From Liolophura sinensis (taxonomy: Eukaryota > Mollusca > Polyplacophora > Chitonida > Chitonidae), in contig NC_088300.1 in NCBI RefSeq assembly GCF_032854445.1, positions 4,836,001 through 4,900,000 of the forward strand: 64,000 bases of DNA, given 5' to 3'. The notes beneath the pieces are model-generated. The model was not told where the DNA came from. It saw nothing but the letters and a program-made list of their open reading frames with translations, and did no database searches. How positions within the stretch are numbered: position 1 is the stretch's first letter; every line of letters begins with the position of its first letter. Position numbers and translations under genes: made by a program. This document shows positions 12,415 to 61,400 of the stretch, piece after piece.

Positions 12415-15400
12415 CTAATTCTTTCTTACCTCTATTTTGTTAATGAGATCCACCTCCCAAGGGTGCGAGACGAAGCTGACCACATGTCCAGGAGAGCCTG
12501 CTCCCACTCGACCAGCCCGCCCAGAACGGTGGATGTAGTCAGACATGAAGTCTGGGCACTCATAATTTATCACGCGCTCAACCTGCAGCAAACACCAAAT
12601 CAGACATGACAGAGGCCACAGTAATGTAATTCAAACACTGTTGGAAAGGAGGACTGAATGTAAGTTGTGCACATGGAATTCTAAAACAAATAGTGAATTA
12701 GAATTATGATACTGTGAGAAAACCTAACATATTTAAGACACAAATACAACAATGACTTAACAATAACACATAATGTATATTTTTTACCCTGAGTGTGTCA
12801 AGCCCTCTTGAGGCAATGTCCGTGCACACCAATATGTTATGTTCTCCGTTTTGGAAACTCTCAAAGCGACCAGCTCTACTCTGCAAGTATAAAAAATACA
12901 CATTCACAGGTGTTATTTACCTCCTAGAACACACCACGGTTTACAGTTAAAATTTCCTTTATACATTAACAAAAATAGGGACAAAACAACTTTTATTGTG
13001 TGTTTTGAAATTGTGTTATATTCATTATTGGACCATTAGTATGAAGAAAGGTGGAAATGTTGATGACCTGGAGGACAGCCATAATCATTCATTAATTATA
13101 AAAACAAATTAAACCTCCTAGAGAAGCAGAAACCACTTTGGCTTGACTGCTATGAGGGAATGGTGAAGGGGACATAAATTATTCATTTAATATGATGTTT
13201 CACATCCATCATAACAAGCAGAGGTACCTTTTCCGTCAAGAAGCCACTCATAAACATATTGTCTACATCACTGGCATCCAGAAAGCGAGTCAGCCAGCTG
13301 CAGGTTGTAGTTTTATTGCAGAATATCAAAGTGGGGATAGACTTGAGTATGCTCTGCTTTGAGAGACGTAAGATGTTCTCTGAAAAAGTTTTATTGAAAA
13401 CAACATTTCCTCACAGCACATAAATTTACATGTAAAATGTTACACTTCAACGAACAAAATATTTCATTTCAAATACTTTGAGTTCAATGAAAGATCATTT
13501 TGTTCAATCATACACAGCATAATATTCCCCTTTGAATGAGTTACATTTGAATTTTGGTAAAACTCTCAATAAACCATAATCCTGGCTGCCGTCATATAAG
13601 TGAAATACTCGAGTATGACATAAAACACCAATCAAATAAATCAATGATTTTGTGGTGCCTCGGTAATTCATGCAGGATTTAAAGTTCCTCATAGAAGAAA
13701 CTCAAATGGTAGGCCACTAGTCTGCCCACAGTTTAATTGTGATTATGAGAAGGTAGTATACTTTCTGTACAAAGCCATCAAGCTAGTGAGATGCTTAACA
13801 AATGGTTTATATAGGCTACTGGTGAGCTGGGCTAGTAGTAGCTAATACTGGCACTGTGACAATATGTAGAAGAAGTATTTGTAGCACATACCTGGTTTAG
13901 ATGAGGGTCTGAGCCGGATGAACTTCTGTGAGACATGTGGCATGAGGCGATGAACGTGATCTGTGGTGGCTTTGTGGAAGGCTTCCACCTAGAACAAGAG
14001 ATCTGGTGTGAGACCATGAACATGATCTGTATAGGGGCGTTGTGGAAGGCTTCCACCTAGAACAAGAGATCTGGCGTGAGACCATGAACATGATCTGTAT
14101 AGGGGCGTTGTGGAAGGCTTCCACCTAGAACAAGAGATCTGGCGTGAGACCATGAACATGATCTGTTTTATGGCATTGTGGAAGGCTTCCACCTAGAATG
14201 AGAGATCTGGCATGAGACCATGAACATGATCTGTATAGGGGCGTTGTGGAAGGCTTCCACCTAGAACAAGAGATCTATCGTGAGACGTTGAACATGATCT
14301 GTATAGGGGCTTTGTGGAAGGCTTCCACCTAGAACAAGTGATCTGGCATGAGACCATGAACATGATCTGTATAGAGGCGTTGTGGAAGGCTTCCACCTAG
14401 AACAAGAGATCTGGCATGAGACGAACATGACCTGTACAGGGGCATTGTGAAGGCTTCCACATAGAACAAGAGATCAAGCATGAGACACTGAACATGATCT
14501 GTATAGGAGCTTTGTGGAAGGCTTCCACCTAGAACAAGAGATATAGCATGAGACCATGAACATGATCTGTACTGAGGCGTTGTGGAAGGCTTCCACCTAG
14601 AACAAGAGATCTGGCATGAAACAATGAACATGATCTGTATAGGGATGTTGTGGAAGGCTTCCACCTAGAATGAGATATCTGGCATGAGAAAATGAACATG
14701 ATCTGTATAGGGATGTGGAAGGCTTCCACCTAGAATGAGATATCTGGCATGAGAAAATGAACATGATCTGTATACAGGCGTTGTGGAAGGCTTCCACCTA
14801 GAACAAGAGATCTGGCATGAGACAATGAACATGATCTGTATAGGGGCGTTGTGGAAGGCTTCCACCTAGAACGAGATCTGGCGTGAGACCATAAACATGA
14901 TCTGTATAGGAGCTTTGTGGAAGGCTTTCACCTAGATCAAGAGATCTGGCGTGAGACCATGAACATGATCTGTATAGGGGCATTGTGTTTTTTTTTTTGT
15001 TTGTTTTTTTTTTGATTGGTGTTTTGCACCGTACTCAAGAATATTTCACTTATACGACGGCAGCCAGCATTATGATGGGTGGAAACTGGGCACAGCCCGG
15101 GGGAAACCCACAACCATCCGCAGGTTGCTGGCAGACCTTCCCACTTACGGCCGGAAAGAAAGCCAGCATGAGCTGGACTTGAACTCACAGCGACCGCATT
15201 GGTGAGAGCCTCCTGGGTCATTACGCTGCGCTAGTGCGCTAACCGACTGAGCCACGGAGGCCCCAGGGGCATTGTGGAAGGCTTCCACCTAGATCAAGAG
15301 ATCTGGCGTGAGACCATGAACATGATCTGTATAGGAGCTTTGTGGAAGGCTTCCACCTTGAACAAGAGATCAGGCATGAGACCATGACCATGTATAAGGG

Positions 15401-21400: not shown

Positions 21401-24400
21401 TTCATAGCAATCACATTGGTGAGAGGCTCCTAGGTTGTTAAACTTCACTAGCATGCTAACCACTGGGTCATTGAGATCCCCTCCCCAACCTTAATAACAT
21501 GTTTATGCGAACAATTATATTAACACATACATATGACTAATGAAAGGACAATACCCTCTAGCTTGTCTGACCAGATAAATGACAAATATATAAATATACA
21601 AACATTTGTCATGTGTTGTAACAAATATGTTTTCCCAAGCCTCTGTCTCAGGGACAAAAAGCCGGCAATGTCTGACATCCAAGATGTAACTGTTGCCAAA
21701 GGGAACGATGACCATAAACTAAACATAAATCCCGCCAATGTCTAAATGGACAGAGTTGGAGATTTCCTCACCATAATTTGATCAGCGAGTTCCCGCGTTG
21801 GAACCACAATGATGGCTTGGGGACTGTTTTTCCAAGATGGTGTGGAACGATCAGTCACCTGACCATGCCGATGAATCAGCTCTATTAAGGGGGTCAGATA
21901 AGCCAAAGTTTTCCCACTACCTGTAAGAGAAAGACACAGCTTGATATATATACGGTTGCAAACTTGCCAATGGGGATTCAATGGAATGATATGGCAAGTA
22001 AATACAGTGATGTACTCAACTTAGTACAAAAAAACCCCGCTGATCCACACGTATTTATCGCCAATGCATAAAGATTTCAGCCATTAACTCAGTGAATGCT
22101 GTCTGAGATTACCTTGAGAAATATAAAAGGGCTGTACAGCTTGGGTTTGTGGACAAGATACCACTCCGGATATGCTGCTAGTGGATTATTACCTTAATAA
22201 CGTATTTGTTGCCACTGATCAGGTTTGAACCCTTAACCATTTGGTCTGCAGCCTAAACCCATACATTCATGCAAGAGAAAATTCTCCTGGCCCAGTTAGA
22301 GATAGCTACTAAATTCTATCCTGCTACACACAGACTAGGTTTTTTCCTCAAGATTACCTTACCAGTTTCAGCAGCTGACATTACACAATGACCTTTGAGA
22401 ATTTTAGGAACTGTTATTTCCTACAAACAAAATAAAAAGATGGAAACAATTTCAATGCACTGTTTTGTTCTGTTCACAACATATATATGTGTGTGTAAAT
22501 TTGATACATTTACGTGTTCTGAACAATATTTAACTTTTAAGTCACTAGTATCAATTATTATCGTTGTGTTTAATACAATTATTTTTCCACTCACATGTGA
22601 AAGATTTCAAGCTGAGAGGCTTCTCACCTGAATACGTGTTGGTTGAGAAATGCCAATACTCTTCAATCCATCAGCAACCGCAGAGCTCACGCCCAGATCT
22701 TCAAACCTCTGTGATACACTCAGCCAGGATGGGTTCTGCCAGACAGAACAACAAAGCATTTGTTAACACTGATATCAGCTGTGTCTGCATCAATACAGGA
22801 AGGGTTCTGAGAGACAGAGCAATGAAGCCTTTGTTAACACTGATGTCAGCGTTGTCTGCATCAATACAGGATGGGTTCTGAGAGACGGAGCACCAAAGCC
22901 TTTGTTAACACTGATGTCAGCATCAATACAGGATGGGTTCTGACGGACGGAGCAACAAAGCATTTGTTAACACTGATGTCAGCATTGTCTGCATCAATAC
23001 AAGATGGGTTCTGAGAGATGGAGCAACAAAGCCTTTGTTAACACAAATGTCAGCTGTGTCTGCATCAATACAGGAAGGGTTCTGACGGACGGAGCAACAA
23101 AGCCTTTGTTAACACTGATGTCAGCTATGTCTGCATCAATAGAGGAAGAGTCTGAGAGACAGAGCACCAAAGCATTTGTTAACACTGATGTCAGCTGTGT
23201 CTGCATCAATAGAGGAAGGGTCTGAGAGATGGAACACCAAAGCCTTTGTTAACACAGATGTCAGCTGTGTCTGCATCAATACAGGAAGGGTCTGAGAGAC
23301 GGAGCACCAAAGCCTTTGTTAACACTGATGTCAGCGTTGTCTGCATCAATACAGGAAGGGTCTGAGAGACGGAGCACCAAAGCCCTTGTTAACACTGATG
23401 TCAGCGTTGTCTGCATCAATACAGGATGGGTTCTAAGAGATGGAGCACCAAAGCCTTTGTTAACAATGACGTCAGCGATGTCTGCACTAAACCGGGAGAC
23501 GGACTATTGTCACTTTAGGAACATGCGAATATTGACGTCCCCAACAGATTTAGTATGCTAATTTTCTCTGATGTGGTATATTTTGTTGACAGCAACAGGT
23601 GAGTGACAAACATCACCAGTCATCGACAGGTGACATGGGAATTTCAAGCCAGGCAAAACCTCTAAAAATGCACTTTCTCAAGTGAATTTTTGGAGAAAAT
23701 ATTTTAATGAAGAAATAGTAAAGTTCTACAAGGAGATATACGTAACTTTACGGAATGATCAAAAATAACTGCTAAAAGACAATTTCATCATTACAACAGT
23801 ACAACAGTTCTACTCACTGGCTCATAGGGTAAAATAGTAAAGTGATCTCCGTGAGACTTCCTGTGCTTCCACCCATATGAGGCCAGGTGTTTGGGGTTAA
23901 AGGAACTGTATGTCTGGCCTAGGTGATGATTAAATTCTGGCCTTTTACACGAGATAATCAGGGGAGACTTAAACACAGGTTTACGATTCTGCTGTGCTTT
24001 CTCAATGGCTTTCTTGGTCATCATTTTCTGCATATTCTTCACTATGTTGTGAGGGACGGTGATCCTGGGAAGATCTGGATTCAGTTCAGCCTGCAAAGTA
24101 AACACGTACATGTTTATCCATACACAAAATGCTAATGAGTTATAGAATTACTTAATAGCTTAATGCATCTTCTAGATTACCTTCCTTTCTGTGATCATCC
24201 AAATTTGCAGACATGGACACTTATGATATATCTTATTAGGGAGGTGAAATAATTAAACCGCTGAGAATAGTTTTTTTCAATGTTTACCTTGACAACAACA
24301 ATGAAATTTTCTCATACTATACTTCAATGCCATTATAGTCTTGCTGTTATTATAAATGTAATGTCTGATCACATATCTACATTCTCTGTAGTTTCCAGAA

Positions 24401-24538: not shown

Positions 24539-24681
24539 GGTAACACGGAATATCCCAAATTATGTATTGCTGCCAAACACATATAAAAGAATTAAGATCA
24601 ATTATTTCAAAACACTGACACTACAACTACATCACAATCTGGACAATCAGGGAATGAGTGATTTCAAAGATTGTTGTTTGC

Positions 24682-25018: not shown

Positions 25019-25092
25019 GTCTGGCCATGGAACATATCTCAGGTTCTGCCAGAGACAACTGTAGCAAACACTTACGGCCGAGTGTGAGTGAA

Positions 25093-26280: not shown

Positions 26281-26300
26281 TGACCGCAAATTTGCGGTCA
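26281..26300. other. 20-bp perfect palindrome
   Basis: The sequence tgaccgcaaatttgcggtca equals its own reverse complement. It follows a direct repeat of ggctgacgagt at about 26232 and 26251. Function unknown; it could be a dimeric transcription-factor site. Confidence 0.6.
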
Positions 26301-29984: not shown

Positions 29985-32900
29985 TAGACATATTCCCTGT
30001 GGCCCAGGGGAGGTATACATATGAGATCAGGTAGGGTAGAGGCTATCTTCTCCAGCCTAGCCTTCCCCTGGGCCTGTTGACTACTTATACAGCTCTCCAG
30101 TCTATTCATGTGTTCCTCCAAGCTTGCAATTTTCCCCAGGACATCTCTGGACTTGCCATCCATCTCCTCTAACAGAGCCTCATGGCGATTTTCTGTCTGG
30201 AACCGTCCTAGGTTAGACGGTTTGTTAGCGGGTTTGGTCACGTAAGCTAGGTCCAGGCAGTGAGGCACTCTTGAGGGAGCAGGAGAGCAAGAGCCTAGGG
30301 ATAACTTTGCTTTCTGTAAGGAGATCTCCAGATCAAGGGAGGCAATCAAACTGTCAAGTTCCCTCTCAGAAATCGAGGATCGCTACAAAATTGCAAAAGA
30401 AAGTATCAGAGGATGATGAAATTAACCACATCTGGAAAATTGGAATGTGAATCAATACTTCAAAAAATATACTTCGACCATCATAAATTTGGTGCAGCTG
30501 ATGATTACAGAAAAACTGATGACGTTCCAATGATACAAAATTCAGAATAGCAAACGTAAGTTAAAACAACCGAACTTGAGTGCAATTCAAAGACAGTATG
30601 GTTAAAATGTAACTGTAACTGTAACTGTTTATTATGATAAAAATGAAGCCAACAAACACTCAAGATTCCAGGTAGGAAGCTGAATTGACTGTGTTGCAAT
30701 ACATTACGGCTAGATTTGGGAACATTCACTAAAACACAAACCTTTGTCTCCCACAAATGCTCCAGTTCTTCCACCATTGTTTCATATTTCAGAATTGTTG
30801 TTTGCAAATCTTTACGGGCCTCTAACATTTGTGCCACTCCATCTGGTGGAATGTTATAGACTGAGTGAGTAGACATTTTCTGATCTCCTATATGTTCCTC
30901 CATCACTGACTTGACTTTTAGGTCCAGAACTGTTTCCTGTGATAAGATGTTACACCTGCATGAGTAAACCTATGATAATTCCTTCATCCATGTCTTTGTC
31001 TGAATCGTTGTTTAATGCCACGCTCTAGAATTTTGCACTTACATATGATGGTGGCCAGTATAATATACTGGAGTGTCTGGAGTAAAACACAAACCTTTGG
31101 CAACTTCTACTGGCCACCAGCAAAACTACAGACAAGCATCTTCATCCTCTTTATTGTCATCAAGGCCCCATGAATAAGGGAAGCAGGGGAATCTTACAAA
31201 GTTCCTCTGTATTAAGAATGTAACCTTTATCTATTAACCATGTACATGTGCGTTATATGGGATCTGAAAAATATGGGGTTGAATTAATGCCTTATGTTTT
31301 GACATTAGTTTATAAAAAGCTGTAGCAAATTCAGAAAAGATCACAGAGAGAACCACAAAAATCTTTATTCCATTTCAACACAAAAATAACCACAAATGAG
31401 CCATGACTGTGCTGATCTTTTATGACCATAAAATCATATCAATACATCAAATCTTCTTCTGAAGCTGAAATGACAATTATGATCTCCTTACCATCCACCT
31501 CCAGAAAACCTCCTCTTTGTCTTGCCACTTGAGCAGGTTCTGAAGCCGAGTGTTGTCTTTCTCTAATAAGTATAACACCTACAAGCATATCCAAACCATA
31601 CTTTCAACACTAGCTCACCTCAAAGACAAGAAATAACAAGTCAACACTTACATGTAAACTGAGCACATGTGTTTCAACTTCTATCCCATCAAAAATCTAG
31701 AACAAGATTTAACACAATTGTTTATAAATGATCTAAAATCTTTTTCAACAAGGAGAAGAATCATCAACAAAAATGCAATAAAATAACAGTTTACTAAAAT
31801 TATCATTCTACATTACCATCCTACCCTCTGAAACCATGGGTACATTACTAGCATTTGCCCACCCTGCAACAAATGTTTAAATGTTTGCGTTAAGTTTGAC
31901 TGACCAGGAAACATTACATCCCAAATCGTGTAAGTGTAGATGTCAAGGCGTACGTGTAGATGTCAAGGCATACGTGTAGATGTCAAGGTGCACATGTAGA
32001 TGTGTATGTGTATGTAGATGTCAAGGCGTATGTGTAGATGTCAAGACGTACGTGCAAATGTCAAGGCGTAGGTGTAGAAGTCAAAGCGTACATGTAGATG
32101 TCAAGGCATACGTGTAGATATCAAGGCGTACGTGTAGAATGTCATGGCATACGTGTAGATGTCAAGGCGTACATGTAGATGTCAAGGCATGCGTGTAGAT
32201 GTCAAGGCATGTGGGCAGATGCCAAGGCTTACGTGCAGATGCCAAGGCGTAGGTGCACATGTCAAGGCGTACGTGTGGATGTCAAGGCGTACGTGTAGAT
32301 GTCAAGGCGTGCATGTAGATGTTTTAGGCATACGTGTAGATGTCAAGGCGTGCATGTAGATGTCAAGGCATACGTGAAGATGTCAGGCATACATGTAGAT
32401 GTCAAGGTGTACATGCAGATGTCAAGGTGTACACGTAGATGTCAAGGCATACATGTAGATGTCAAGACGTACATGTAGATGTCAAGGCATACGTGTAGAT
32501 GTCAAGGCATACATGTAGATGTCAAGGCGTACATGTAGATGTCAAGGTGTGCGTGTAGATGTCAAGGGGTGCATGTAGATGTCAAAAAGTGCGTGTAGAT
32601 GTCAAGGCGTGCGTGTAGATGTCAAGGCATACATGTAGATGTCAAGGCATACATGTAGATGTCAAGACGTACATGTAGATGTCAAGTGGTACGTGTAGAT
32701 GTCAAGGCGTGCTTGTAGATGTCAAGGCATGCGTGTAGATGTCAAGGCGTACGTGTAGATGTCATGGCATACGTGTAGATGTCAAGGCATACATGTAGAT
32801 GTCAAGGCATACGTGTAGATGTCAAGGCATATGTGTAGATGTCAAGGCGTACATGTAGATGTCAAGGCGTACGTGTAGATGTCAAGGCGTACATGTAGAT

Positions 32901-35900
32901 GTCAAGGCATACGTGTAGATGTCAAGGCGTACGTGTAGATGTCATGGCATACGTGTAGATGTCAAGGCGTACATGTAGATGTCAAGGCATGCGTGTAGAT
33001 GTCAAGGCGTACATGTAGATGTCAAGGCATGCGTGTAGATGTCAAGACGTATGTGTAGATGTCATGGCATACGTGTAGATGTCAAGGCATACATGTAGAT
33101 GTCAAGGCGTACATGTAGATGTCAAGGCATACGTGTAGATGTCAAGGCATACATGTAGATGTCAAGGCGTATGTGTAGATGTCAAGGCGTACATGTAGAT
33201 GTCAAAGCATGCGTGTAGATGTCAAGGCGTATGTGTAGATGTCATGGCATACGTGTAGATGTCAAGGCATACATGTAGATGTCAAGGCGTACATGTAGAT
33301 GTCAAAGCATGCGTGTAGATGTCAAGGCGTATGTGTAGATGTCATGGCATACGTGTAGATGTCAAGGCATACATGTAGATGTCAAGGCGTACATGTAGAT
33401 GTCAAGGCATACGTGTAGATGTCAAGGCATACGTGTAGATGTCAAGGCGTACATGTAGATGTCAAGGCGTACATGCAGAGGTCAAGGCATACGTGTAGAT
33501 GTCAAGGCATACATGTAGATGTCAAGGCACACATGTAGATGTCAAGGCGTATGTGTAGATGTCAAGGCGTACATGTAGATGTCAAGGCACACATGTAGAT
33601 GTCAAGGCGTATGTGTAGATGTCAGGCGTACATGTAGATGTCAAGGCGTACATGTAGATGTCAAGGCACACATGTAGATGTCAGGCGTACATGTAGATGT
33701 CAAGGCGTACATGTAGATGTCAAGGCACACATGTAGATGTCAAGGCATACGTGTAGATGTCAGGCATACATGTAGATGTCAAGGCACACATGTAGATGTC
33801 AAGGCGTATGTGTAGATGTCAGGCGTACATGTAGATGTCAAGGCATATATGTAGATGTCAAGGCGTACATGTAGCTATGAAGCATTTATCAACATGTTTA
33901 AAGATCATCCTGCAACACACCAGATAGTTCATAAGCAACATAATGGTCTGTCTCCATGAAGTGAGCAGATCTACACATTATATAACACCAGTAAGTTACC
34001 TTTTTGAGGAGTTCGGGATCCTTGAGGAGCTGTACCTCCAAGACAGACAGGTGATCTTTGTTTGGGGTCAGGTGCACACCTTTTGTAGCCTCATGGATCT
34101 ACAACAGAATCAATGTCCAGTCACAGTTCTGGTGCAGGCCACATTATGTATTTAGTACCATATTAATTACACTAACTGTCTCCGCATTTTTCTCAACACA
34201 ACTGCAGATTACACATTATTATCTAAAATTGTTGGCTTGTGCAATGATGGTGCAGGTCAGGTATGTGGATGAAGGAGCCCTGATCTCTGATCTCCCATGG
34301 ATTTTAACACAATGGTCAGCGACTAGTCAAATCAAAGCAATGATGTATGGTAAGAAGAAAACTCACATCCAATTTAGATAATCTTTAACAGCATGCAGAA
34401 TGTCTGAAAACATATTAAGCACATGAAGCCTAGGATACGCAAAATAGAAAAATTAAATTAAAGTTGTCCAACACCAATCAACGCTATCATTTTTTAGAAC
34501 ATGACATTACACAGGGATTATCCTGGAGCAATAAAGCAATGAGAGAAAATCTTGCGCTGCTCGAAATGAATGGGGTATTTTAAGAACCAAATGGGATTTT
34601 AAACAAATATAGTTTCTCTCATGGAATGAAACTCAGACAAAATTGCATGGAAAAAAGGCAAATATACCATAATGATACCACATTTATATGGTCAATGTCT
34701 TGGTTTGCTCCAGAAAAAAAAATGTTGTCATATATAGGGCCAATAGTGTAGCATTGTCTTTGTTCAAACAATTACATGTGATTGGTTACTGATGACATGG
34801 AAAAAAAAATTTATGCTCGGGTACTGGAGCTTAGTAACTAAAAAGTCTGCTGTGAACTTTTAATACTGGTTAAGATGTTGGGGCCTAGTGATCCTCGTAT
34901 AGGCCCTATTATTATTAGTAAAATATAAGCCAGAAGGCTGAAGTCAGCTGTAGCTGATATAGATGCTGGCATTTGTAATGGATTTGCTACACTGCTGTGA
35001 CTTTTGACAATAGTAACAAGTCACAATAATATCTTTCCTTTTGTTCCAAAACTTAAGTGTAGATGCAATCAAAGTTACAAGCAGGCTTTTAAAGTCACCC
35101 CCATACCTGCAACTTCCAGTGTTTCATCACCACTAGTTTTACAAAAATGTCTTCACGCATCCCTTTTCATAGTCCGAAGTTGCAATCTTCCCTTTAGTTT
35201 TGGATATGTTTCTGTTTTAATAGTCCTCTGTAGCCAGTCAGAATAACTACCACTGCCGTCGTTGTCAAACAGCCATTGCATTATTGTACACAGGTGGCAT
35301 TTCCGATAATTTGTTAGAAGCTCTCTAACTTTCTTATCCTAACTCCCGCCAACCCGGTGAAGATTTCACTATCCCAGCAGGTCAGCGGTTATTCCGACCC
35401 CTGGTAAAGAATGATCATGACAAGTCCATGCGACATTCAAGCAAATGGTATTCTAACGAGTTCAGTTTTCTCTGTCATTATACAAAACAACCATCGGCAG
35501 GATTTCTTCAGTGACAGAAAAATATAGAGCAACATTTGTTACCATCGAAGAGAATTTTTATCGTGTTGGTCAAAATTTTAGGAGATTTTTTGGAAATTTA
35601 CACGTATAAATGCTCCTGCCCAAATTCTATCCCTGCTTAACAGCTACAGGAGAATGGACAGCCAATGTCATTTGTGAATACCCTGGAAAATGATGTAAAT
35701 TAATTCAGAAAACTGAACACAAACCTTGTGCATTTTCCTATATTTCTGAGCCTGAAGAGCAAACAAACTGCGCAGATTCATTCTGAGTTTTCCATTCAGG
35801 AGGAGAAGCTGCTGTACCTTTTCCCCTGCTGAGGAGCCATGCTTGACTGACAGGGGTCGGGCTGAGCTTGCTCTGTAGTCATCATGGTAAAGTTCTGCCG

Positions 35901-40400: not shown

Positions 40401-43400
40401 TTTTTGACTTACATATTGTATGCAACATTGTACAGATACAAAAAACATGATTGCTTTGCAAATGTGATTTTATTCTTACTGGAATAAAAAGTTCCCTAAA
40501 ACTGCAGTAATTTCTTCTTATTCAGAAGTTGTGCGTGTTTAATGCCTTTGTAGGAGATGTTGGTGTTCCAGTCTGACAAGTCGGTGGATGTGAAGAGATT
40601 TGTCATTGGCTTTATGGAGGAGGCCTGGTTTGTATTCATCTTTAAAGTTTAACCATATTTTTTTAAGCAATATGTGGTATTATTATAATTTTTTGCCCTT
40701 GATAGGAGTCAACACCAGTGACCAATGTGACAGAAAATTTGACTTGATTATATGAATTTATTTAGGTTGTGTCAGAATGCCTGATATTAGTCTGTTCATA
40801 TAATTAAGACGTACATCATAGAGAGAAAAAACAGAGCAGCAATAACAGTGTGATAGCTGGCAAATGGTCACATGCAACTGGTGAAATACAACCTCTTGTC
40901 AATTTACCTCAGTTATGGTTTTGTTCTAACTGTTCATGTAAATGCTTAACAGTAGCAGATTACATGTCCTAGCTCCATGGTTTAAGGAGAATTAAGTAAA
41001 AAGAAAATGCAGTGATGTTAATTGCAGTCGTCACTGATAACCATTGGCTGACAATTTACAAGATCACTTACAGTTGTAGTCTAGTCAAGCTCCTGCTGCA
41101 GGCTAAAATATGGCTTTATTTTATTTATTTGATGGGTGTTTTACACCATACTCAAGAATATTTCACTTATACAAAGGCAGCCAGCATTATGATGGGAGAA
41201 AACTGGGCAGGACCTGGGTGAAACCCAAGATCATCTGCAGGTTGCTGGAAGACCTTCACACATACAGTGTAGCTTTACCTTAGTAGGGGTGTCAGGTACG
41301 TGGTAAGGTTTGCACAGTGGCTCATTTGAAATGGTTTTAGGTTTCTTCTTCACTCATGTAACAGCCCTTGCAAATGAAAAATTTGTTAATATGGCAAAAC
41401 CACCTGATAATGAACACTAAAATCCACAGTAAACAATGTCATTGACATTTATTTTAAGGCATCGTGGTGATCTAAACACAATTGTAGAAAACAAGAGGAT
41501 AATGTTAAGTTAAAATCTGTTTAATGTTCCAGTAAAAAGGACAATGAGATCCTGCCCAAGGTGGTGCCCATTTTGAACATGTTGCTGTTTGAGGAAAACG
41601 TGAATGTTCAGAAAAGAACTATGTTATGTCTGGGGCAGCTATTCAAGGTCATAGTGCAGGTAAGGGCCTTGGTATCTGGCAGACAAGTCCTGATTCTGTA
41701 GATCATTGTGCAGGTAAGGGCCTTGGTACCTGGCAGACAAGTTTTGATTCTGTAGGTCATTGTGCAGGTAAGGGCCTTGGTATCTGGCAGACAAGTCCTG
41801 ATTCTGTAGGTCATTGTACAGGTAAGGGCCTTGGTACCTGGCAGACAAGTCCTGATTCTGTAGGTCATTGTGCAGGTAAGGGCCTTGGTACCTGGCAGAC
41901 AAGTCCTGATTCTGTAGGTCATTGTGCAGGTAAGGGCCTTGGTACCCGGCAGACAAGTCCTGATTCTGTAGATCATTGTGCAGGTAAGGGCCTTGGTATC
42001 TGGCAGACAAGTCCTGATTCTGTAGGTCATAGTGCAGGTAAGGGCCTTGGTATCTGGCAGACAAGTCCTGATTCTGTAGATCATTGTGCAAGTAAGGGCC
42101 TTGGTACCTGGCAGACAAGTTTTGATTCTGTAGGTCATTGTGCAGGTAAGGGCCTTGGTACCTGGCAGACAAGTCCTGATTCTGTAGGTCATTGTGCAGG
42201 TAAGGGCCTTGGTACCCGGCAGACAAGTTCTGATTCTGTAGGTCATTGTGCAGGTAAGGGCCTTGGTACCTGGCAGACAAGTCCTGATTCTGTAGGTCAT
42301 TGTGCAGGTAAGGGCCTTGGTACCCGGCAGACAAGTTCTGATTCTGTAGGTCAGTGCACAGATAATAACTCTGTATTATTATTTTTTTTTTTTTTGATTG
42401 ATGTTTTACACTATACTCAAAAATATTTGACTTATATGACCGTGGCCGGCATTATGGTATGCGGAAACTGGGCAGATGGTAGTCCCCAACCATCTGCAGG
42501 TTGTTGGAAAACTTTTCCACCTACAACCAGAGATGATTCAGGCCTCAGATAAAATCTGGATCATGGGTGTCTAGAAATGAAGGTACCAATACAATATACA
42601 TATGGCCGTGTAGGCCTTGGTTGTACAGTGACAGCACCAATAATTGAGGCTGTGACTATGGAACATGCTCCATGGAAGTTGTACCTCACAAGAGAAATAA
42701 ATTTTTGCGGAATTTTGATTTGTGGATGATTGGTCTACTAAATGGAGTTCTTAGTGACAAAATTGCAAACAAAATTGAATTGACCAAAGTATTCATTCAC
42801 AAGATGACAATTTGCATTAATGTGTTTGTTTCGTTTAATATTGTAAATTATTAGATAACTAATAATTTATGTGTGAGTTAGTGATGAAGACATTGTGGGT
42901 TCTCTGTGGCCGAGGTGGTAGCATGCCAGCTTGGCGCAATAACCCAGGAGCCTCTCAAGTGCGGTCGCTGTGAGTTCAAGTCCAGCTTATGCTGACTTCC
43001 TCTGCTGCCATACCTGGGAAGGTCTGGCAGCAGCCTGCAGATTGTTGTGGATTTCCCCCGGGCTCTGCCAGGTTTACACCATATTCCTGGTTGCTGTCTT
43101 ATGAGTTAAATATTCTTGAATATGGCAGTGAAATAAATAAATAAATACAGACATTGTATTTGAGATCGAAGATATATGTGAGCACAAAACTATGGCATTG
43201 GTTGTCTTCATTAACCAGTCAGAAGTGTTGAGCTCTACCTGTTAGTACTGTTATCACTTTTGTGCACTATAGCATTGTGTGGATACACTTGTTGATGATT
43301 GGAGCATGTGCTTGTTTCAGTGGATAGCTAAGGCCAAGAAGGTAACAGACATGATGCGCCAAATCTGGGAGATGATTAACCAACTGAAGACAAAAATTAT

Positions 43401-46400: not shown

Positions 46401-49400
46401 TATGTGCAACAATATGAATAGATATACCAAACTACAATGGACATTCAGTACTTAGTTATAATTATGCTATACACACACCTTTATATGAGGATGTAATTGT
46501 GTGATTTTTTCAGCATCAATCTTATGACAGTGATGGGTGCTCTGACTGCTATAGCCAAGCAAAGGCCAATGTTTTTCTCAAGGGTTGTACAGGCCTTTGA
46601 GGCTCTACATGGTGAGTTCTGTCGCATAACATGAATTTGTCTCTGTTAGCTTTAGAAATGCTTAGCTACATTTCACATCGATCTGAATCCCGTACCTGCG
46701 TTTGTAAACAGATTTATAATCCTTGTAAAATCCAGAAATGACCACAAACAGTTCCTGATTGTTTTTGTGGCAGGTTTATTCATAAGTGAGTTTATAGAAA
46801 AGAAAATCAAAGAAAGTTTTTATATATGAACTATTGAGGGCGCTAATACTTGTCAGAAATGTGGCATGGGTTGATTTACTCTTTTCTGTTCACAGTAAAC
46901 CTACCTCCAACCCTGGCCACATCTCAGGTCAGCAGTGTGAGGAAAAACCTCAAGATGCAGATGTTAGCTTTACTGAGACACCCCAGCTCAGCAGACTACA
47001 TCTCCCAGATCACTACACTCCTGACAGACTTAGGGGCCACTCAGTCAGAGGTAAGTCACTGTGACACCCAGATCATCAGAGTACATCTATCTTATCACTT
47101 GACTTGTGGAAGACGCAGGGGCCACTCAGTCAGAGGTAAGTCACAGTGACACCCAGATCATCAGAGTACATCTCTCTTATCACTTGACTCGTGGAAGACG
47201 CAGGGGCCACTCAGTGAGAGGTAAGTCACAGTGACACCCAGATCATCAGAGTACATCTCTCTTATCACTTGACTCGTGGAAGACGCAGGGGCCACTCAAT
47301 CAGAGGTAAGGCACTGTGACACCCAGATCATCAGAGTACATCTCTCTTATCACTTGACTCGTGGAAGACGCAGGGGCCACTCAGTGAGAGGTAAGTCACA
47401 GTGACACCCAGATCATCAGAGTACATCTCTCTTATCACTTGACTCGTGGAAGACGCAGGGGCCACTCAATCAGAGGTACAGTAAGTCACAGTGACACCCA
47501 GATCATCAGATTCATCTCCCACATAACTACACTCCTGACAGACACAGGGGCTACTTAATTAGAGGAGGTAAGTTACAGTGACACCCAGATCATCAGAGTA
47601 CATCTCTCTTATCACTTGACTTGTGGAAGACGCAGGGGCCACTCAGTCAGAGGTAAGGCACTGTGACACCCAGATCATCAGAGTACATCTCCCAGATCAC
47701 TTACACTTCTGACAGATGTAGGGGCCACTCAGTTAGAGGTAAGTTACAGTGACATCCAGTACATCTCTCTTATCACTTCACTCCTGGAAGATGTAGGAGC
47801 CCCTCATTCAGAGATAAGTCACAGTTGCTCACCGTCACTTTATTTTCTTTCTGTTCATGTTTTTATCTATTTCAATTCTTTTGCTTGTAGGTGATGAAAG
47901 CTATGCCCAAGCTGGATGAAAGCAAGAAAAGGAAGAGTGCAGATGATGAGCCAAGGAGCAGTAAAAAGATAAAGAGAGAGGAGGTGTGTATGTTAAGCAG
48001 ACAAAGAAAGGCAGAGAACAAATGGTTACAATGTGAAAGCCCTCACGTTATACTTGTTGTAATTTTTCTCAATTTGGGAAATGAAATGAGTACTAGCATT
48101 TTGTTGGAGGTATTCAGTATAATTTATGAGTTTCTGATTGCCTGCATATTATAGCAGCTTTATAACATCTATTTCTTATCTAATAATGTTAATGATCTGG
48201 AACATCAATGAAATACTCAATCCTAAGGTTTACTCCTAGGCACACTCCTGTAAAAGTCCTGTGCACAACAGTATTTTTACAGGGCTGAAGTGTTTGGTAC
48301 GGAACAAAGCTGCCATGTGAACAACATTATGATTTGCCAGATTTGCCAATCCTATCCTGCATGAACTTAAAAATCTTTTCACTTGTGGTGAAATCTAAAA
48401 CCATCCATATTCGTGTGACTTATACCATGACCTATGTTTTTGTTACAGATAGATGCAGATGATGATGATATTGGGATGACGCCCATGGTGAGTCGGCCTG
48501 AGAAACCACCCACTGTTGACCAGAGAACCACTGCCATTGATATCACCGCCGAGGATATCCGCCCAAAATTCACCAATGAAAATGTAGCAGACCTTGTACT
48601 CATTAGTATGGTAAGGCTATATGTGAAAGTTAATGTTGTTCAAATACATTGATATTTCTGTAAGAATGTCCTTTTTTTGAAAGTAGCAGTTTTTATCTGG
48701 AGGTAAATATATGGGGGATAAGTTTTATCCCATGCTTTTGCAAAAAAGGGATAAGAATTTGAGCCTCTCTGTCTCTCTGTCTGTCTGTCTGTCTGTCTGT
48801 CACACTGTGGTCTCTTTGCAGTAACTGCTCCAAATATAGTCCGATTTTGATCAAATTTTGTGCACAGGTTCACTTGTTTGAAAACCTGTCTAGTACATGA
48901 ATAAGTTTTGTATATTTAATTAATTCTGTGATTCTCAGAGGTAGTTGGTTTCCTTGTTATACAGGATCCACGTGTAGTCCACACATTACCCTCATTGTTA
49001 CAGATTCTCTTCTTTTCCCCCCGTGCAGGTAATGTTGCCAGATGCAATGCCTCCCCACTTCCAGGCCACCTATACCCCCATAGCCGCCGCGGGAACGGAG
49101 GCTCAGATCAAACACATGTCTCGCCTGCTGGCCACACAACTCACCATGGCAGGAATGGGCAGTGGGATAGCAGAGGTGCAGAGGAGAGTGAGTACAGCCT
49201 AGATTTGAATCCTTCAATCCTTCACCTCTAGTCTTTTTACCCACTTTTCTTTTTGTGTGAAATCATGTCAGGCTTGACTACCTTGAAATGCTTTGCCCCT
49301 TTAATAATTTGCTTGATTCTGAGCGGTCATTTTTACAATAGCTGTTGTGATTTTTTTTCTGATTTTGATAAAATTTGCGTTTAAGCAGTTTAATTCATAT

Positions 49401-52400
49401 ATCAGTTTTGTATATTTAAAATGGGATACAAATTCAGTGAATTAGCTGAGCTAAAATAATATGATACATATTATATGAGCACCATTATGGTGTCTGTGTG
49501 TGAAAAAATGTAGTAGGTCATATACATGTGAGCACCATTACCATGTCTGTGTGTGTGTGTGGAAATATATAGTAGGTCATATACATGTGAGCACCATTAC
49601 GGTGTCTGTGGGTGGAAATATATAGTAGGTCATATACATGTGAGCACCATTAAGGTGTCTGTGGGTGGAAATATATAGTAGGTCATATACATGTGAGCAC
49701 CATTAAGGTGTCTGTGTGTGGAAAGATATAGTAGGTCATATACATGCGAGCACCATTGCCATGTCTGTGTGTGTGTGTGGAAATATATAGTAGGTCATAT
49801 ACATGTGAGCACCATTATGGTGTCTGTGGGTGGAAAGATATAGTAGGTCATATACATGTGAGCACCATTATGGTGTCTGTGGGTGGAAATATATAGTAGG
49901 TCATATACATGTGAGCACCATTACGGTGTCTGTGGGTGGAAATATATAGTAGGTCATATACATGTGAGCACCATTACAGTGTCTGTGTGTGGAAAGATAT
50001 AGTAGGTCATATACATGTGAGCACCATTATGGTGTCTGTGGGTGGAAATATATAGTAGGTCATATACATGTGAGCACCATTAAGGTGTCTGTGTGTGGAA
50101 ACATATAGTAGGTCATATACATGTGAGCACCATTACCATGTCTGTGTGTGTGTGTGGAAATATATTGCAGGCCATTAGACTATATGAAAGCTAATGTGGA
50201 AAAAACAGTGTGATAGGTGCCATGTAATAGCTTTACTTGTCCATTTTAGGCTGCAGAGAGTAAGGAAGACGATGATGGAGGGACTTCCCCTAACCTGGAG
50301 GATTCTGGCACATCCCCCAAACAGCTCATCCAAACTGTTGTGGGTAGGTTGGGTGCCTTTATATAAGATCCTTATTGTGCAGAGTGAGACATGTAGTTGT
50401 GCTACCCACACTTGTAACATTTCCAACTTGGTGATTGTGCAGAGTGAGACATGCAGTTGTGCTACCCACACTTGTAACATTTCCAACTTGGTGATTGTGC
50501 AGAGTGAGGCATGCAGTTGTGCTACCCACACTTGTAACATTTCCAGCTTGGTGATTGTGCAGAGTGAGACATGTAGTTGTGCTACCCACACTTGTAACGT
50601 TTCCAACTTGGTGATTGTGCAGAGTGAGACTTGTAGTTGTGCTACCCACACTTGTAACATTTCCAGCTTGGTGATTGTGCAGAGTGAGACATGTAGTTGT
50701 GCTACCCACACTTGTAACAGTTCCAGCTTGGTGATTGTGCAGAGTGAGACATGTAGTTGTGCTACCCACACTTGTAACGTTTCCAACTTGGTGATTGTGC
50801 AGAGTGAGACTTGTAGTTGTGCTACCCACACTTGTAACATTTCCAGCTTGGTGATTGTGCAGAGTGAGACATGTAGTTGTGCTACCCACACTTGTAACGT
50901 TTCCAACTTGGTGATTGTGCAGAGTGAGACTTGTAGTTGTGCTACCCACACTTGTAACATTTCCAGCTTGGTGATTGTGCAGAGTGAGACTTGTAGTTGT
51001 GCTACCCACACTTGTAACAGTTCCAGCTTGGTGATTGTGCAGAGTGAGACTTGTAGTTGTGCTACCCACACTTGTAACATTTCCAGCTTGGTGATTGTGC
51101 AGAGTGAGACTTGTAGTTGTGCTACCCACACTTGTAACAGTTCCAGCTTGGTGATTGTGCAGAGTGAGACATGTAGTTGTGCTACCCACACTTGTAACAT
51201 TTCCAGCTTGGTGATTGTGCAGAGTGAGACTTGTAGTTGTGCTACCCACACTTGTAACAGTTCCAGCTTGGTGATTGTGCAGAGTGAGACATGTAGTTGT
51301 GCTACCCACACTTGTAACATTTCCAACTTGGTGATTGTGCAGAGTGAGACATGTAGTTGTGCTACCCACACTTGTAACATTTTCAACTTGGTGATTGTGC
51401 AGAGTAAGACATGTAGTTGTGCTACCCACACATGTAGCATTTCCAACTTGATGATTGTGCAGAGTAAGACATGTAGTTGTGCTACCCACACTTGTAACAT
51501 TTCCAACTTGGTGATTGTGCAGAGTAAGACATGTAGATGTGCTACCCACACTTGTAACATTTCCAATTTGGTGATTGTGCAGAGTGAGACAGATAGCTGT
51601 ATTATCCACACTTGTACAATTTTCAACCTGCTTATTTATTTAGGAGGGGTTTAGCACTATACTCAGGAGCTTTTGACATTTATGACTGCATTGGTATAGA
51701 AGGCATACCTGAAAAACGATTTGCCTTACAGCTGGAGCCAAATAAGTGATTGTTGATTTCAAGCAAGAGACTTCAACAGCAGTAAAAGAGAAGCAAAACT
51801 TATAAATCTTGTTCAGGGTAAGGACAATTTCAACCTTTTGCTTTAGCCTAGGAATAATATTGGGTATTTGAATCCTTCTCTTTGGTTTTCACGTTACTGA
51901 ATTCCTGGCTTATATTACACAGGTGGATCTGTGAGTCAGATGGCAGGTAATCTGATGGACATGAAGAAACCTGGCTTACCTATACCTGCTCAGGTAGGTT
52001 AATCACTGACGACTGGGTGCACTCATCTTGCCAGTGAGACTTGGTTTCTAACCGTGTTTGAAGGCCAAGACATGAACGGTATCCGCTTTTCACGTATACA
52101 GTGGTGTTCTGTGGGTAACCCTGACGAATAGTGTAAGAGAACTATGGTAAATTCAGTATGGACTTGAGTCACAAATGGACAAGACGAGGTACCCAGTTAT
52201 GTGGGCCATAATTCCATTATTAGAGGGCGTAGTTTTCTGTGTGTGTAGATCTATTCTTACAAGATATCAGAGACATCATCTGACTTAATACTAATTTATG
52301 TTTTGTGTTAAGATTTAGCCTAAACCTTAAAGAGTTGAAAAATACTTTATTCATACCATCATAAAAGGTGTTTGGGAAGGTTGAAGAATTAGGTTGACAT

Positions 52401-55400: not shown

Positions 55401-58400
55401 GTGGTGAAGAAACTACAAGATGTCCCTGACCTGAAGGATGCAATGGAGGTGAACATCACAAAGATAATACAACCTGAATGATTTGTTCCTGAGATAATAT
55501 TTAGAAATATAAAGAATAACTGTTAACGTTAAACCTGTTATTGTAAAATTCTTCTTTTTGGATTTTTCTGATTTTTTTTATGTGGATTTTTTAAAAATTA
55601 ATTTCTATATAGCTGGCTAGTGCGAAGTACAGTCACCACTATACTCTTGTTTACTGAAATCTGTCAAAGTAAATTTAAGGGAGGTTTCTCTGAAGGTGCC
55701 TCACGTATTGAGCTCAGTCGTAACCATGGCCTTCACGTCTTTTTTTTTGTATATTAGAATCTATGCTAGGTAAATATTTAAGTCTTTTATCTATTGAGCT
55801 GAAGTTTTGTATTCATGAGCCTCATACTGACGAGGTCTTTGGTAGTGTTGCCACTGAATCTATGTTTTTATTCAAACCTTACCATTGCAGAACAATAAAA
55901 ATGATCTGTTTATGAATGTGTGCGTGTGGAGGGCTTTTCCCTTCAGTGCAGACACAAGACTGTCTGTAAAAACTGTCTTTTCACAATTTCAGAAATATGC
56001 CCTAATACAGCTGAAGTATCTATTACACAAATCACCTCCTCCAATACTGTTCCCTGGCATCAAAAACAAAGGTTTGTTTGGTGGTTAAATTACAGGTAGA
56101 GTACAGTGTTCTGGATCTGAACATTTCTGTTGAAAATTTTAATTGTTTACAGATTACTGTCACATTTTTTGTACATGTTGTTGGGGCTTAAGGGGCCTGT
56201 TTTCTACAGCAGTTACATCATTCCAGCAAAAACATCTGTTACGATGACATTATTCTTGATAATTGCTGAAGACAATTTTGCCTTTAAAATGGGTGGAGGA
56301 AAGGAAACGGGAACAAGTCACTGACCTTTGGAAAGTTACTGATGAACTTTCTCACATGTAACCCACAGATATTCACGCCATTTATATGGAAGACATCTGA
56401 TCTTTAAGCAACAACAGGTCGCTTGTCACCATGGCCGCACAAACAATGAAAACATGCTCACCTGTACATGTACGTTTGGTTGATTTTACCCCAGGTGTAA
56501 GCTGTGACTGCTTCATTTTATTATGGCCCTCAGCTACTTGTAGGTATCTCATGTTGTGGAACATAGAAGGGCCATTTTGTGAATATTTACTGGCAGTAAA
56601 TATGTGGTAAATCCTGTTTTTGTATTAAAGTAACATGTAATGACACTTATATAAATACGAGTATTGTCTTTGACAGATGCCCCTAAGGTCTGGGCCGAGG
56701 ATAGCATCAAACTCTGCTTGTACCTGTATCTTGGACTGTTACCTATCAATCACAAACTGATGCATGAGTAAGGACTGGTATTTTATTTTTGTCAGTATCA
56801 AGACGTCCCTCATCAGTTTGCAGATCTGTCCTTCACACTGTTAAGAGCCGTGCACATGTATTGGAAATACTTGCATGTACAGATCTTGTGTTTTATGTTA
56901 ACACCTGTAACTGTCATGGAGATGTGTTTTGTCATATAATTTTTGTAACCATTGTTCAGAGTGGATGCAATTCTTGGAAATATACAAATTGACAAGTTTC
57001 TTCATAGTCTCACTGAAAGCTACAATTGTAGTTACATCTGAACTCTTTTGTGAACAAATTGTTTTAGAGGAGTTGAACATGCTGTAGGCCAGAAGGAAGT
57101 ATATGTACACCAGTGAATCTGGTTGTGTGTTTTCAGGTTAGCCACTGTGTACACTGCTGCCACAGCTGACATCAAGAGGTGCATCTTAAGAGTGTTGGAA
57201 AACCCGGTTTGTTCTCTACTCTACTTTCTCAACTGTGAAGTATTTCCGTCCTGTGATGAGCTGTTACACATTTTAACCATGTATCATCAAGTGAAAGGGA
57301 TGGCTGTACAGCTGCCTTACCAAGTACTTGTTATTTGCTTGTAATGTTTGTTTGAACAGGTGGAAGGGATTGGACTGCAGTCACCAGAGCTTGTGTTGCT
57401 TGTAAGATTGTGTTATAATTGAATGGCGATGCAGTCACTAGAGTTTTTGCTGTTTCTGATGTTGTGTTATCAGGTGAAAGAGATGAGGATGCAGTCAACT
57501 GAGGTGTTACTGTTTGTAATGTTGTGTTATCAGGTGAAAGGGGTGGGGATGCAGTCGCCTGAGCTGTTAATGTTTGTAATGTTGTGTTATCAGGTGAAAG
57601 GGATGGGGATGCAGTCGCCTGAGCTGTTAATGTTTGTAATGTTGTGTTATCAGGTGAAAGAGATGAGGATGCAGTCACCTGAGGTGTTACTGTTTGTAAT
57701 GTTGTTTTTATCAGGTGAAAAGGGTGAGGATGCAGTCACCTGAGGTGTTACTGTTTGTAATGTTGTGTTATCAGGTGAAAAGGGTGAGGATGCAGTCACC
57801 TGAGGTGTTAATGTTTGTAATGTTGTGTTATCAGGTGAAAAGGGTGGGAATGCAGTCACCTGAACTGTTGCTGTTTGTAATGTTGTGTGATCAGGTGAAA
57901 GGGATGGGGATGCAGTCACCTGAGGTGTTGCTGTTTGTAATGTTGTGTTATCAGGTGAAAAGGGTGGGAATGCAGTCACCTGAACTGTTGCTGTTTGTAA
58001 TGTTGTGTGATCAGGTGAAAAGGGCGAGGATGCAGTCACCTGAGGTGTTACTGTTTGTAATGTTGTGTGATCAGGTGAAAAGGGTGGGAATGCAGTCACC
58101 TGAACTGTTACTGTTTGTAATGTTGTGTGATCAGGTGAAAAGGGCGAGGATGCAGTCACCTGAGGTGTTACTGTTTGTAATGTTGTGTGATCAGGTGAAA
58201 AGGGTGGGAATGCAGTCACCTGAACTGTTGCTGTTTGTAATGTTGTGTTATCAGGTTAAAGAGATGGGAATGCAGTCACCTGAGGTGTTGCTGTTTGTAA
58301 TGTTGTGTTATCAGGTTAAAGAGATGGGAATGCAGTCACCTGAGGTGTTGCTGTTTGTAATGTTGTGTTATCAGCTGAAAGATATGCGGACGAAGTCACC

Positions 58401-61400
58401 TGAACTGTTACTGTTTGTAATGTTGTGTTATCAGGTGAAAGGGATGGGGATGCAGTCACCTGAGCTGTTACTGTTTGTGGAGAACTGTCCTAAAGGAGCA
58501 GAGACCCTGGTTACTAGGGTGATTCACATCCTCACTGATAAGGGTAAGTCACACTGGGAATGTTTATAATTGTATGCATGTACATGGATCTCTTATGTTA
58601 CGCTCACTGATTGTCTGATTCTTTTACCAAGAACTGATTTTAAATGTCAAACTACCCTCTGCATGGACTTATGTTACAGGTACATGCAACAAGACATGAA
58701 AATAGATGTGCTGCTCTTCACTTGATAAAGACAAGGATTTCTGTAATATAGTTATCCACAGTTGGAGCCTACCCTAATTCTTCTCATTTTTGGGACAGAC
58801 AGTAGTAATGATGAAACCAGAATTAGTAGTGATGAAACCAGAATTAGTAGTGATGAAACCAGAATATTGTATTTCTTTCCCAGCTTTTTGGAAAAATCAA
58901 GATATAATTATGTTGTTCAGTAGATGGACTTACCGTGTGAGAAAAAAGTAACTGAATATTCCGACTGTAATTACATGAATACTGGCTGAAAAGAGCAGAC
59001 CAGGTGTACCAAAAATTAGAAGAAATAAGGTGGTGACCAACATGAATTGTGTTTTAAACACTCTAACTTTTCCATAATTAACCTTAGCCAGGTGATGAGC
59101 AATGTTGACTGTGATTCTGTCCACAGCGGCCCCGTCTCCAGAGCTTGTGGAGCGAGTCAGAGATCTTTATCACAAACGTGTGCCTGATGTCCGTTTCCTC
59201 ATACCAGTCCTCACTGGATTACAAAAGGTAACTCTTTTGTTTCGTTTTTCTTTTTTTGTAAAAAAAATTTTGGCTTAATTTTGGGTTAAAGCCTTCAAAT
59301 CATGAAACAGCTTTGTCAAGGAAGATATGAGTGAGTGAAATATCTTAATGAGGTTTATCAATGCTAATGTAATTTTAAAACTAAAATTTGTTTAGATCAC
59401 AGGAGTGGACTTATATGTAGTGTTAAATAGATGCTAGGCCAAAGTTAAGATATTATGTACGCGACCAACTCTTCAAAAAGGCCTCGACTTTTTTCATGTT
59501 TTTACAGGTGCCAAGTTATTTTGTTTTATTTCATTTATTTATTTATTTTTTTCATTGATCATTTGAAATGTCACTCTATGTATACAGGTGAGGGGGGACA
59601 CTTCAGAGATATACAATTTGTTGAATCCGCAGATCCAGTTTAAGGATGGCTTATATTTATTGATATGCAGAGACCGCTGGCATCCTTAGCCCGGAAGACG
59701 TGTGCACCAGATTATGACATTGCTCTATGCATGTGTAATACTTAATACCCTTATCCACTTAATACATGGTCTGTCCGCAAGCTAAGACATTTAAGCAACC
59801 ATTGACACTGACCTTTATTTCATACTTTCCTGAACTGTCATGGAGATCACCACCGATGCTGGGAAACTTTGGTGGATACAAACTGTATCTGTTTACTGAT
59901 ACATTGTTGTGAAGTAGAAACAATGGTAGTGACACTAAACAGGGCAGGTGCATTTCTAAAAGTTCACATACAAAGGCAAAACTGATATGTTCCATCCTTT
60001 AATCTTCATGCACAACAGAATAGATGTTTGATCCTTCACACGAAGAAGAATCCCCTAAATCTTACCAAAGTTTAATTAAAATTAGGAAATTTAGGAAAAT
60101 GGAGCTAGATTTTTCAGTATAGATTTTATTTTACTAGGTCACCAGGTTCAACTTCACTCTGTCAAAAGTACCAGCTGGACAGGATTTTGGTTACATTTTC
60201 ACATGCTCGCCCCCACCGTACAGGACCTGAAAATGCTAGCACAAACTGTTGACTTAAATTAAGCTGCAGTAGTCATAAAAATGTTTAATAAATGTTTACT
60301 TATTAGATTATTGTAAAGATCTAAGAATATTTATTTTGAGGATTGCCAAATATTGGATGATATAATTTAGTGCTGTGTTCTGATCAGTGTTGAGAAAGCT
60401 TCATTCTGATTATCATTTGAACAGGATTCTACGATTGTTCTTCCCTTCTGTGAAAAAAAAAACCAAATTTTTCTTTTAAAAGGCTTGTAATATGAGACAC
60501 ACAATATTTTTATTTTGACCCTATGCTAGTTTACTGACAATAGACCAGACACATTACCCATTCATAGTGCATTGACATCCCACCCAGTCATAGTGTACCA
60601 ACACCATACCCAGCCATAGTGCACTGACACCATACCCATAGTGCACTGACACCCTACCAGTCATAGCCCACTGATACCCACCCAGTCCTAGTGCACTGAT
60701 ACCTCACCCAGCCATAGCGCACGGAGACCCCATCCAATCATAGTGCACTGATACCCCATCCAGCTATAGTGCACTGATACCCCACCTAATCATAGTGAGC
60801 TGATACCCCATCCAGTCATAGCACACTGATACCCCACGCAGTCATAATGCACTGATACCCCATCCAGCCATAGAGCCATGATACCTCACCCAGTCATAGT
60901 GCACTGATACCCCATCCAGCCATAGGGCACTGATAACCCACCTAGTCATAGTGCACTGATACCCCATCCAGCCATAGCACCATGATAACCCATCCAGCCA
61001 TTGGGCACTGATAACCCACTCAGTCATAGTCCACTGATACCCATCCAGTCATAGTCCATTGATACCCACCCAGTCATGGTACACTGATACCCCATCCAGC
61101 AATAGCGCCATGATAACCCATCCAGCAATAGCGCCATGATAACCCATCCAGCCATAGGGCACTGATACTCCATCCAGTCATGGTCCACTGATACCCATCC
61201 AGTCATAGTCCACTGATACCCACCCAGTCATGGTACACTGATACCCCATCCAGCAATAGCGCCATGATAACCCATCCAGCAATAGCGCCATGATAACCCA
61301 TCCAGCCATAGGGCACTGATACCCCATCCAGTCATAGCGCACTGATACCCCACCCAGTCATAGCACACTGACACCATACATGATATCTCACCCTGTTATA

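Follow-up and report, generated by a model that had tools for sequence, protein, structure and literature searches.

We analysed a 64,000-nucleotide window of the genome of the chiton Liolophura sinensis (contig NC_088300.1, positions 4,836,001 to 4,900,000; C6:4836001-4900000 in our scan of the genome), which contains the symplekin gene (SYMPK) on the plus strand and the neighbouring DDX28 gene on the minus strand, and found that five tandem arrays in these two genes have repeat units that straddle an exon-intron junction. Minisatellite-like tandem duplications of exon/intron boundaries are known as mirages in lancelet genes (PMC3087553, PMC3902484), and we consider it probable (about 0.85) that the chiton arrays are likewise ordinary mirage minisatellites that captured a junction, with the copy nearest the exon kept by selection. 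The remaining copies carry splice sites that we refer to as decoys, and eight further arrays of this kind were present in an independent sample of chaperonin and kinesin loci. The genome scanned comprises 609,464,459 bases in 632 contigs; L. sinensis is a later name, given by the assembly's own authors (PMC12441733).

Five arrays straddle splice junctions in SYMPK and DDX28

Tandem Repeats Finder recovers all five arrays, and the repeat calls, inspection of the sequence and in-phase exon models agree that their units cross the junctions named in the original prediction. That prediction had also placed the true splice site in the terminal copy of each array, with decoys in the intron at fixed spacings of 68, 71, 54, 85 and 60 bp, and this arrangement was confirmed, with 9 to 16 scorable decoys per array (Table 1). 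The exon-proximal copy is taken to be the working splice site in each window array, because the rest of the exon continues from that copy alone. Use of the terminal copy would give a correct read-through of the protein at the SYMPK junctions and at the DDX28 15494/13988 junction, as judged from sequence alignments, and the exon models keep the reading-frame phase across all five junctions.

The spliced symplekin model, which is incomplete with two gaps, aligns to the solved symplekin sequence 6v4x_J without interruption over exon 5/6 (VIVQ/WIAK), over exon 10/11 (TQSE/VMKA) and over the 57206/58435 junction (LENP/VKGM), where the slash marks the junction here and throughout. The DDX28 piece spanning 15494/13988 similarly gives an uninterrupted alignment to DDX28 chains (7oi6_x, E=1.1e-8), and the exact position of the DDX28 acceptor at 22735 is set by phase and splice-site score only. 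The exon-like parts of the arrays were tested for homology to the exons and proved homologous, and the AGGT claimed at four of the five junctions was indeed read as AG/GT at four. Boundary copies of mirages are expected to escape homogenisation, and on this point the arrays are mixed. In three of the five window arrays the terminal copy is clearly less similar to the consensus than are the decoys (identity 0.84 vs 0.93, 0.88 vs 0.94 and 0.87 vs 0.94); it is not clearly lower in the other two, and is lower in two of the eight arrays of the independent sample (L021 and L035).

Table 1. Mirages, the exons they adjoin and their partner splice sites, in window coordinates, with the mirages of the independent sample by locus. 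Exon numbers (DDX28 10 and 3, SYMPK 25 and so on) are the labels of the original prediction.
Feature	Position	Strand	Splice site or repeat unit	Support or decoys	Partner splice site
SYMPK exon 5	41533..41659	+	donor CAG/GTAAGG after 41659	phase-consistent model, uninterrupted symplekin alignment	
Donor mirage	41646..42353	+	54-bp unit: 14 exonic + 40 intronic nt	12 scorable decoys, GT intact 12/12	acceptor 43321; array end 42353
SYMPK exon 10	46896..47050	+	donor GAG/GTAAGT after 47050	model and symplekin alignment	
Donor mirage	46977..47825	+	85-bp unit: 74 exonic + 11 intronic nt	9 scorable decoys, GT intact 8/9	acceptor 47891; array end 47825 (about 65 bases apart)
Acceptor mirage	57424..58478	+	60-bp unit: 16 intronic + 44 exonic nt	16 scorable decoys, AG intact 16/16	donor 57206; array start 57424
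SYMPK exon 25	58435..58543	+	acceptor TTATCAG/GTGAAA	model and symplekin alignment	
DDX28 exon 10	13892..13988	-	acceptor TTCTAG/GTGGAA, first exon base 13988	model and DDX28 alignment	
Acceptor mirage	13931..15392	-	68-bp unit: 10 intronic + 58 exonic nt	main block 13931-14987 (14 scorable decoys, AG intact 13/14), remnant 15265-15392	donor 15494; array to 15392 (about 100 bases apart)
DDX28 exon 3	22628..22735	-	acceptor CTGGCAG/AACCCA, first exon base 22735	phase and site score	
Acceptor mirage	22725..23486	-	71-bp unit: 60 intronic + 11 exonic nt	10 scorable decoys, AG intact 10/10	donor 23818; array to 23486
Sample donor mirages	L002, L007, L021, L027, L031, L039				
Sample acceptor mirages	L016, L035				

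The 68-bp DDX28 array is split by an unrelated sequence (about 14988-15264) that seems to resemble mollusc short interspersed nuclear elements (SINEs). Since this insertion interrupts the array, the array is the older of the two. Sequence resembling the insertion starts just past the 54-bp SYMPK array, near 42375. A sixth candidate in the window, a 60-bp array at 50374..51627 (+), was rejected: it is intronic and begins 30 nt past the exon-14 donor (last exon base 50343).

No detectable selection on the decoys

Over the 13 arrays of window and sample, 215 of 243 scorable decoys retain an intact GT or AG, against 206.4 expected from the other columns, and the mean identity of decoys to consensus is 0.933 in exonic and 0.930 in intronic columns. 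Neither purging nor protection is thus seen among these 243 decoys, as silent decoys would predict, and the decoy splice sites appear neutral. An in-frame unit length is not favoured among the 13 mirages (a multiple of three in 6, P=0.24), nor was a preference for donors or acceptors detected among them (8 donor and 5 acceptor arrays, P=0.58).

Arrays might instead be functional, their decoys acting as alternative splice sites that give rise to repeat-bearing isoforms or to regulated non-productive transcripts. The high proportion of decoys with the splice dinucleotide would suit this proposal, as would the third SYMPK array, with its 60-bp unit divisible by three and one open reading frame at 57700-58566. 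However, dinucleotide retention equals that of the other columns, and the open frame is no evidence of use, because the opposite strand of the same array likewise has a long open frame (57653-58255). Moreover, only 6 of 13 units are divisible by three, those of 85, 68 and 71 bp shift the frame, and read-through from SYMPK exon 5 hits a stop within the first unit. Given that decoy columns, retention and unit lengths are all unremarkable, there is no visible mark of decoy use, and we consider a functional role improbable.

The window introns do not derive from their arrays

Under the Rogers model, an exonic segment with AGGT is duplicated in tandem to give an intron whose two ends are copies of one site, and AG/GT at four of the five window junctions is what such an origin would leave. 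Nevertheless, each of the five window introns has its partner splice site beyond the limits of the array (Table 1), which makes this origin highly improbable here. Some introns are nearly filled by their arrays, but none of the five was created by one, and the suggestion that such a process could drive intron gain was not borne out in these introns.

Arrays straddle junctions about twice as often as expected

The original prediction held that five cases so close together were hard to explain by chance, and this proved too strong; an approximately twofold excess remains. We collapsed each array to one unit and placed the units at random over the two gene stretches, about 28 kb with 39 modelled exons, whereupon a unit straddles a junction with probability 0.07-0.22. 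In the window five of 11 arrays straddle a junction, a density of five mirages on 39 modelled exons, against 1.71 expected (P=0.0175, or 0.024 with a 3-copy array added). The earlier expectation was too low because it ignored the shortness of the introns after array collapse. The G+C content is 0.427 in non-mirage arrays, 0.370 in introns and 0.413 in junction segments, and correction for G+C raises the window expectation to 2.21 (P=0.05). The window excess is modest and its P values are optimistic, because the window was picked for its striking look.

For the independent sample, exons were located by Pfam Cpn60_TCP1 (50 matches) and Kinesin (132 matches) before any repeat finding. The sample consisted of 38 stretches (222,638 bases) containing 147 of the 182 exon matches, of which 47 of 50 were chaperonin (three in long open frames were excluded) and 100 of 132 kinesin, the kinesin choice favouring clusters of at least three matches and short span. 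Requiring at least 3 copies, a period of at least 20 and a score of at least 100 gave 46 arrays, and by inspection eight of these, in eight of the 38 stretches, straddle a splice junction. The expectation over 152 corrected exons is 3.08 (P=0.0085), or 4.05 when corrected for G+C (P=0.04). The repeat period was set by eye for L016, L021, L027, L031, L035 and L039 and by autocorrelation for the rest; with unadjusted periods P is about 0.04.

A cruder first model, in which 45 of the 147 matches were dropped for containing stops, gave three straddling arrays of 46 against 2.67 expected (P=0.51), and it lost the very cases under test, because several stop-containing matches overshoot the donor. 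An automated second pass (154 exons) gave eight of 46 against 4.11 (P=0.043), with two further arrays covering a whole spurious exon piece; its phase agreement, 64 of 65 contiguous junctions, is inflated, since the fit rewarded phase. Ten flagged arrays, and only flagged ones, were then inspected by reading, with two removed and two restored (L021 and L031) to leave the eight. The L026 array was removed on reading, and a 27-bp array in L007 was rejected as a mirage, as it starts about 12 bases inside the intron.

Two sampled loci contain related arrangements. In L021 (6093-8256) a kinesin exon carries a 73-bp donor mirage, and about 1.6 kb downstream (from about 7817) the end of the exon occurs a second time in a longer, nearly identical version, which places the array between two copies of one exon tail. 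In L007 (8753-9295) a 41-bp array terminates in an acceptor (TATGTACAG/ATCACAG, the exon beginning at base 8753), and what its units repeat is the acceptor signal, with hardly any exon sequence or none.

Tandem arrays are hard to assemble, and contig C99 contains apparent mitochondrial concatemers, so the arrays could in principle be an artefact of assembly. On the other hand, the assembly was made from HiFi reads, as stated in the available part of its report (PMC11068029), the decoy copies of an array diverge on average by 2-16% from their own consensus, and 8 of 38 sampled stretches show the pattern again. We therefore find this explanation barely credible.

Several figures weigh against the view that ordinary minisatellites merely happened upon junctions. 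Window and sample together give 13 straddling arrays where 4.79 are expected (P=0.0005), or 6.26 after correction for G+C (P=0.006), so that arrays are likely to be drawn in some measure to junctions or to the surroundings of exons. Non-mirage arrays also lean weakly toward exons, 13 of 44 lying within 100 bp of one against 8.7 expected (P=0.07), and the approximately twofold excess could partly reflect a general pull of arrays toward exons. As to the process amplifying protosplice sites, local or genome-wide, that had been postulated, the eight straddling arrays among the 46 of the sample show that the phenomenon is not local.

AGGT at the junctions

A bias of this kind would be expected if some process started tandem duplications at junctions, for example through microhomology pairing of the junction AGGT with a nearby AGGT. 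In favour of this are the roughly twofold excess in the independent sample, which is stronger among arrays with five or more copies (a junction is straddled by 8 of these 35 against 2.27 expected, P=0.0011; corrected for G+C, 3.00, P=0.006), and the presence of AG/GT at 10 of the 13 mirage junctions. In the symplekin and sample models as a whole, AG/GT stands at 95 of 179 donors and at 53 of the 179 acceptors. This baseline is perhaps slightly high, as the site score favours AG before GT and most mirage junctions are included in it. Relative to this baseline the excess has P=0.0145 for the 13 junctions but P=0.105 for the independent eight, where six carry AGGT, and the enrichment is suggestive only.

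Genome-wide word counts provide a further hint. AGGTAAG occurs as tandem triples spaced 40-70 bases apart in 3779 matches, compared with 1920 for the reversed word and 2637, 872, 1065 and 697 for four further words built from its letters, so that AGGTAAG has the highest count of the six. Single-word counts are 85,904 for AGGTAAG and 79,919 for the reversed word, so that tandem-triple matches amount to 4.4% and 2.4% of single words, respectively. These are counts of matches rather than of arrays and are dominated by long arrays, most of the first 100 listed AGGTAAG places falling in two, and only one control word was normalised. Array G+C preference, moreover, accounts for part of the excess of straddling arrays, and the two less refined exon models given above weakened or abolished it. 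Taken together, we regard a junction-directed process as possible but rather doubtful.

At C1:18841395-18841495 we observed a tandem unit with donor-like CAG/GTGAGT and acceptor-like ACCCCAG/GATGAAG sequences about 19 bases apart, which looks as though a whole miniature intron were repeated.

A proposed origin of the arrays

Given the anatomy of the arrays, we propose that a short tandem duplication would by chance include an exon/intron junction (the units of the 13 cases are 27-109 bp) and that ordinary minisatellite turnover would then expand the junction-bearing unit into the intron. Selection at the level of the protein would hold the exon-proximal copy as the working site, while the other copies would drift as decoys without detectable selection. 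The decoys are predicted to be silent if, under exon definition, the shortest exon is preferred, with the copy nearest the opposite exon end winning in donor and acceptor arrays alike; such a rule would account for both donor-side and acceptor-side arrays.

A bolder proposal, which we think unlikely but worth stating, is that junctions are a preferred birthplace of minisatellites in the chiton genome through AG/GT microhomology, that about 1 exon in 20 (8 per 147 matches) carries a mirage, that the decoys are silenced by exon definition, and that mirages form a pool for new introns. If this were true, mirages would supply shifted exon borders as well as new introns from a standing stock of ready splice sites across lancelets, moths and chitons. 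The occurrence of mirages in several unrelated mollusc genes suggests a feature common to genomes rich in minisatellites. Each mirage amounts to a natural experiment in splice-site choice, in which one true site is set beside 4 to 45 regularly spaced decoys that resemble it, and mirages bear on exon definition, on the tolerance of cryptic sites and on the raw material for intron gain.

Other observations

Outside both studied genes, the window contains an array at 31930-33874 with a 20-bp unit, about 97 copies and a strong strand skew. Elsewhere in the genome, part of the mitochondrial contig has the order cox3-nad3-nad2-cox1-cox2-atp6, with nad4 and nad5 on the opposite strand, presumably the ancestral mollusc order; the genes were named from their translations, cox1 additionally by Pfam. 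Contig C99 (8348-102844) has seven COX1 matches about 15.5 kb apart, in addition to the 15,209-base contig C632, and looks as though mitochondrial genomes stood there in series or had been concatenated by the assembly.

Comparison with known systems

The original prediction knew of no description of the pattern, but lancelet mirages had already been published with the same Rogers-type idea of intron gain (PMC3087553, PMC3902484). The pattern is old in kind, being known from lancelets and a moth, and new in a mollusc and in several unrelated genes. Our literature search, judged mostly from listed entries and with most subscription journals outside its coverage, showed no case beyond those cited here and none in a mollusc. 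The available portions of reports on metallothionein of an earthworm (intron 1 repeats; PMC12783039), Conus (intronic microsatellites; PMC3862624) and C. elegans (intronic minisatellites; PMC4039745) describe no boundary-spanning repeat, and the available portion of a chiton karyotype paper contains no tandem repeat term (PMC12005716).

As far as the accessible text of the two lancelet papers goes, mirages occur in Adh3, the globins Gb6 and Gb9, troponin C, PGBD5 and two more cited loci, with units of 10-72 bp in Adh3 and of 60 and 108 bp in PGBD5, and regular splicing is reported to be undisturbed, as judged by reverse transcription PCR (PMC3087553; see PMC3902484). Like the chiton arrays, they have boundary-spanning units on the donor or acceptor side, beside the authentic junction, with AG or GT in many copies; in the chiton the unit spans the boundary in 5 + 8 arrays, donor (8) and acceptor (5) sides are both represented, and most but not all copies keep the dinucleotide. 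They differ in host, a cephalochordate rather than a mollusc with five junctions in two neighbouring genes and eight sample junctions. Rates, a chance model and decoy neutrality were measured here. Mirages are further marked by length instability, between haplotypes or somatic; the chiton arrays are known from the sequence of one assembly.

A precedent outside lancelets is found in moth odorant-receptor genes, where, in the part of the report available, 181-bp tandem repeats extend from exon 7 into intron 7 and likewise combine an exon portion (143 bp) with further sequence (38 bp) at the 5' end of the intron (PMC3081303). The moth case differs in having two or three complete repeats of a longer unit in one gene family, and the same part of the report gives no mirage or minisatellite label and no rate. 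Human variable internal tandem repeats in segmental duplications, according to the available text, also have minisatellite units, some at exon-intron boundaries, and are tied to proposed novel introns (PMC2812944). In contrast to these, which alter exon or intron length in recent paralogs, the chiton arrays leave the coding sequence intact and one intron end outside the array.

For a potato RNA-dependent RNA polymerase gene, the gain of an intron through tandem duplication of genomic sequence is described in the portion of that report available (PMC4974935). The Rogers model, as the accessible part of PMC3087553 summarises it, shares with the chiton arrays the tandem duplication of AGGT-containing sequence; under it, duplicated copies give rise to both ends of the intron, whereas in the chiton window introns only one end lies in the array.

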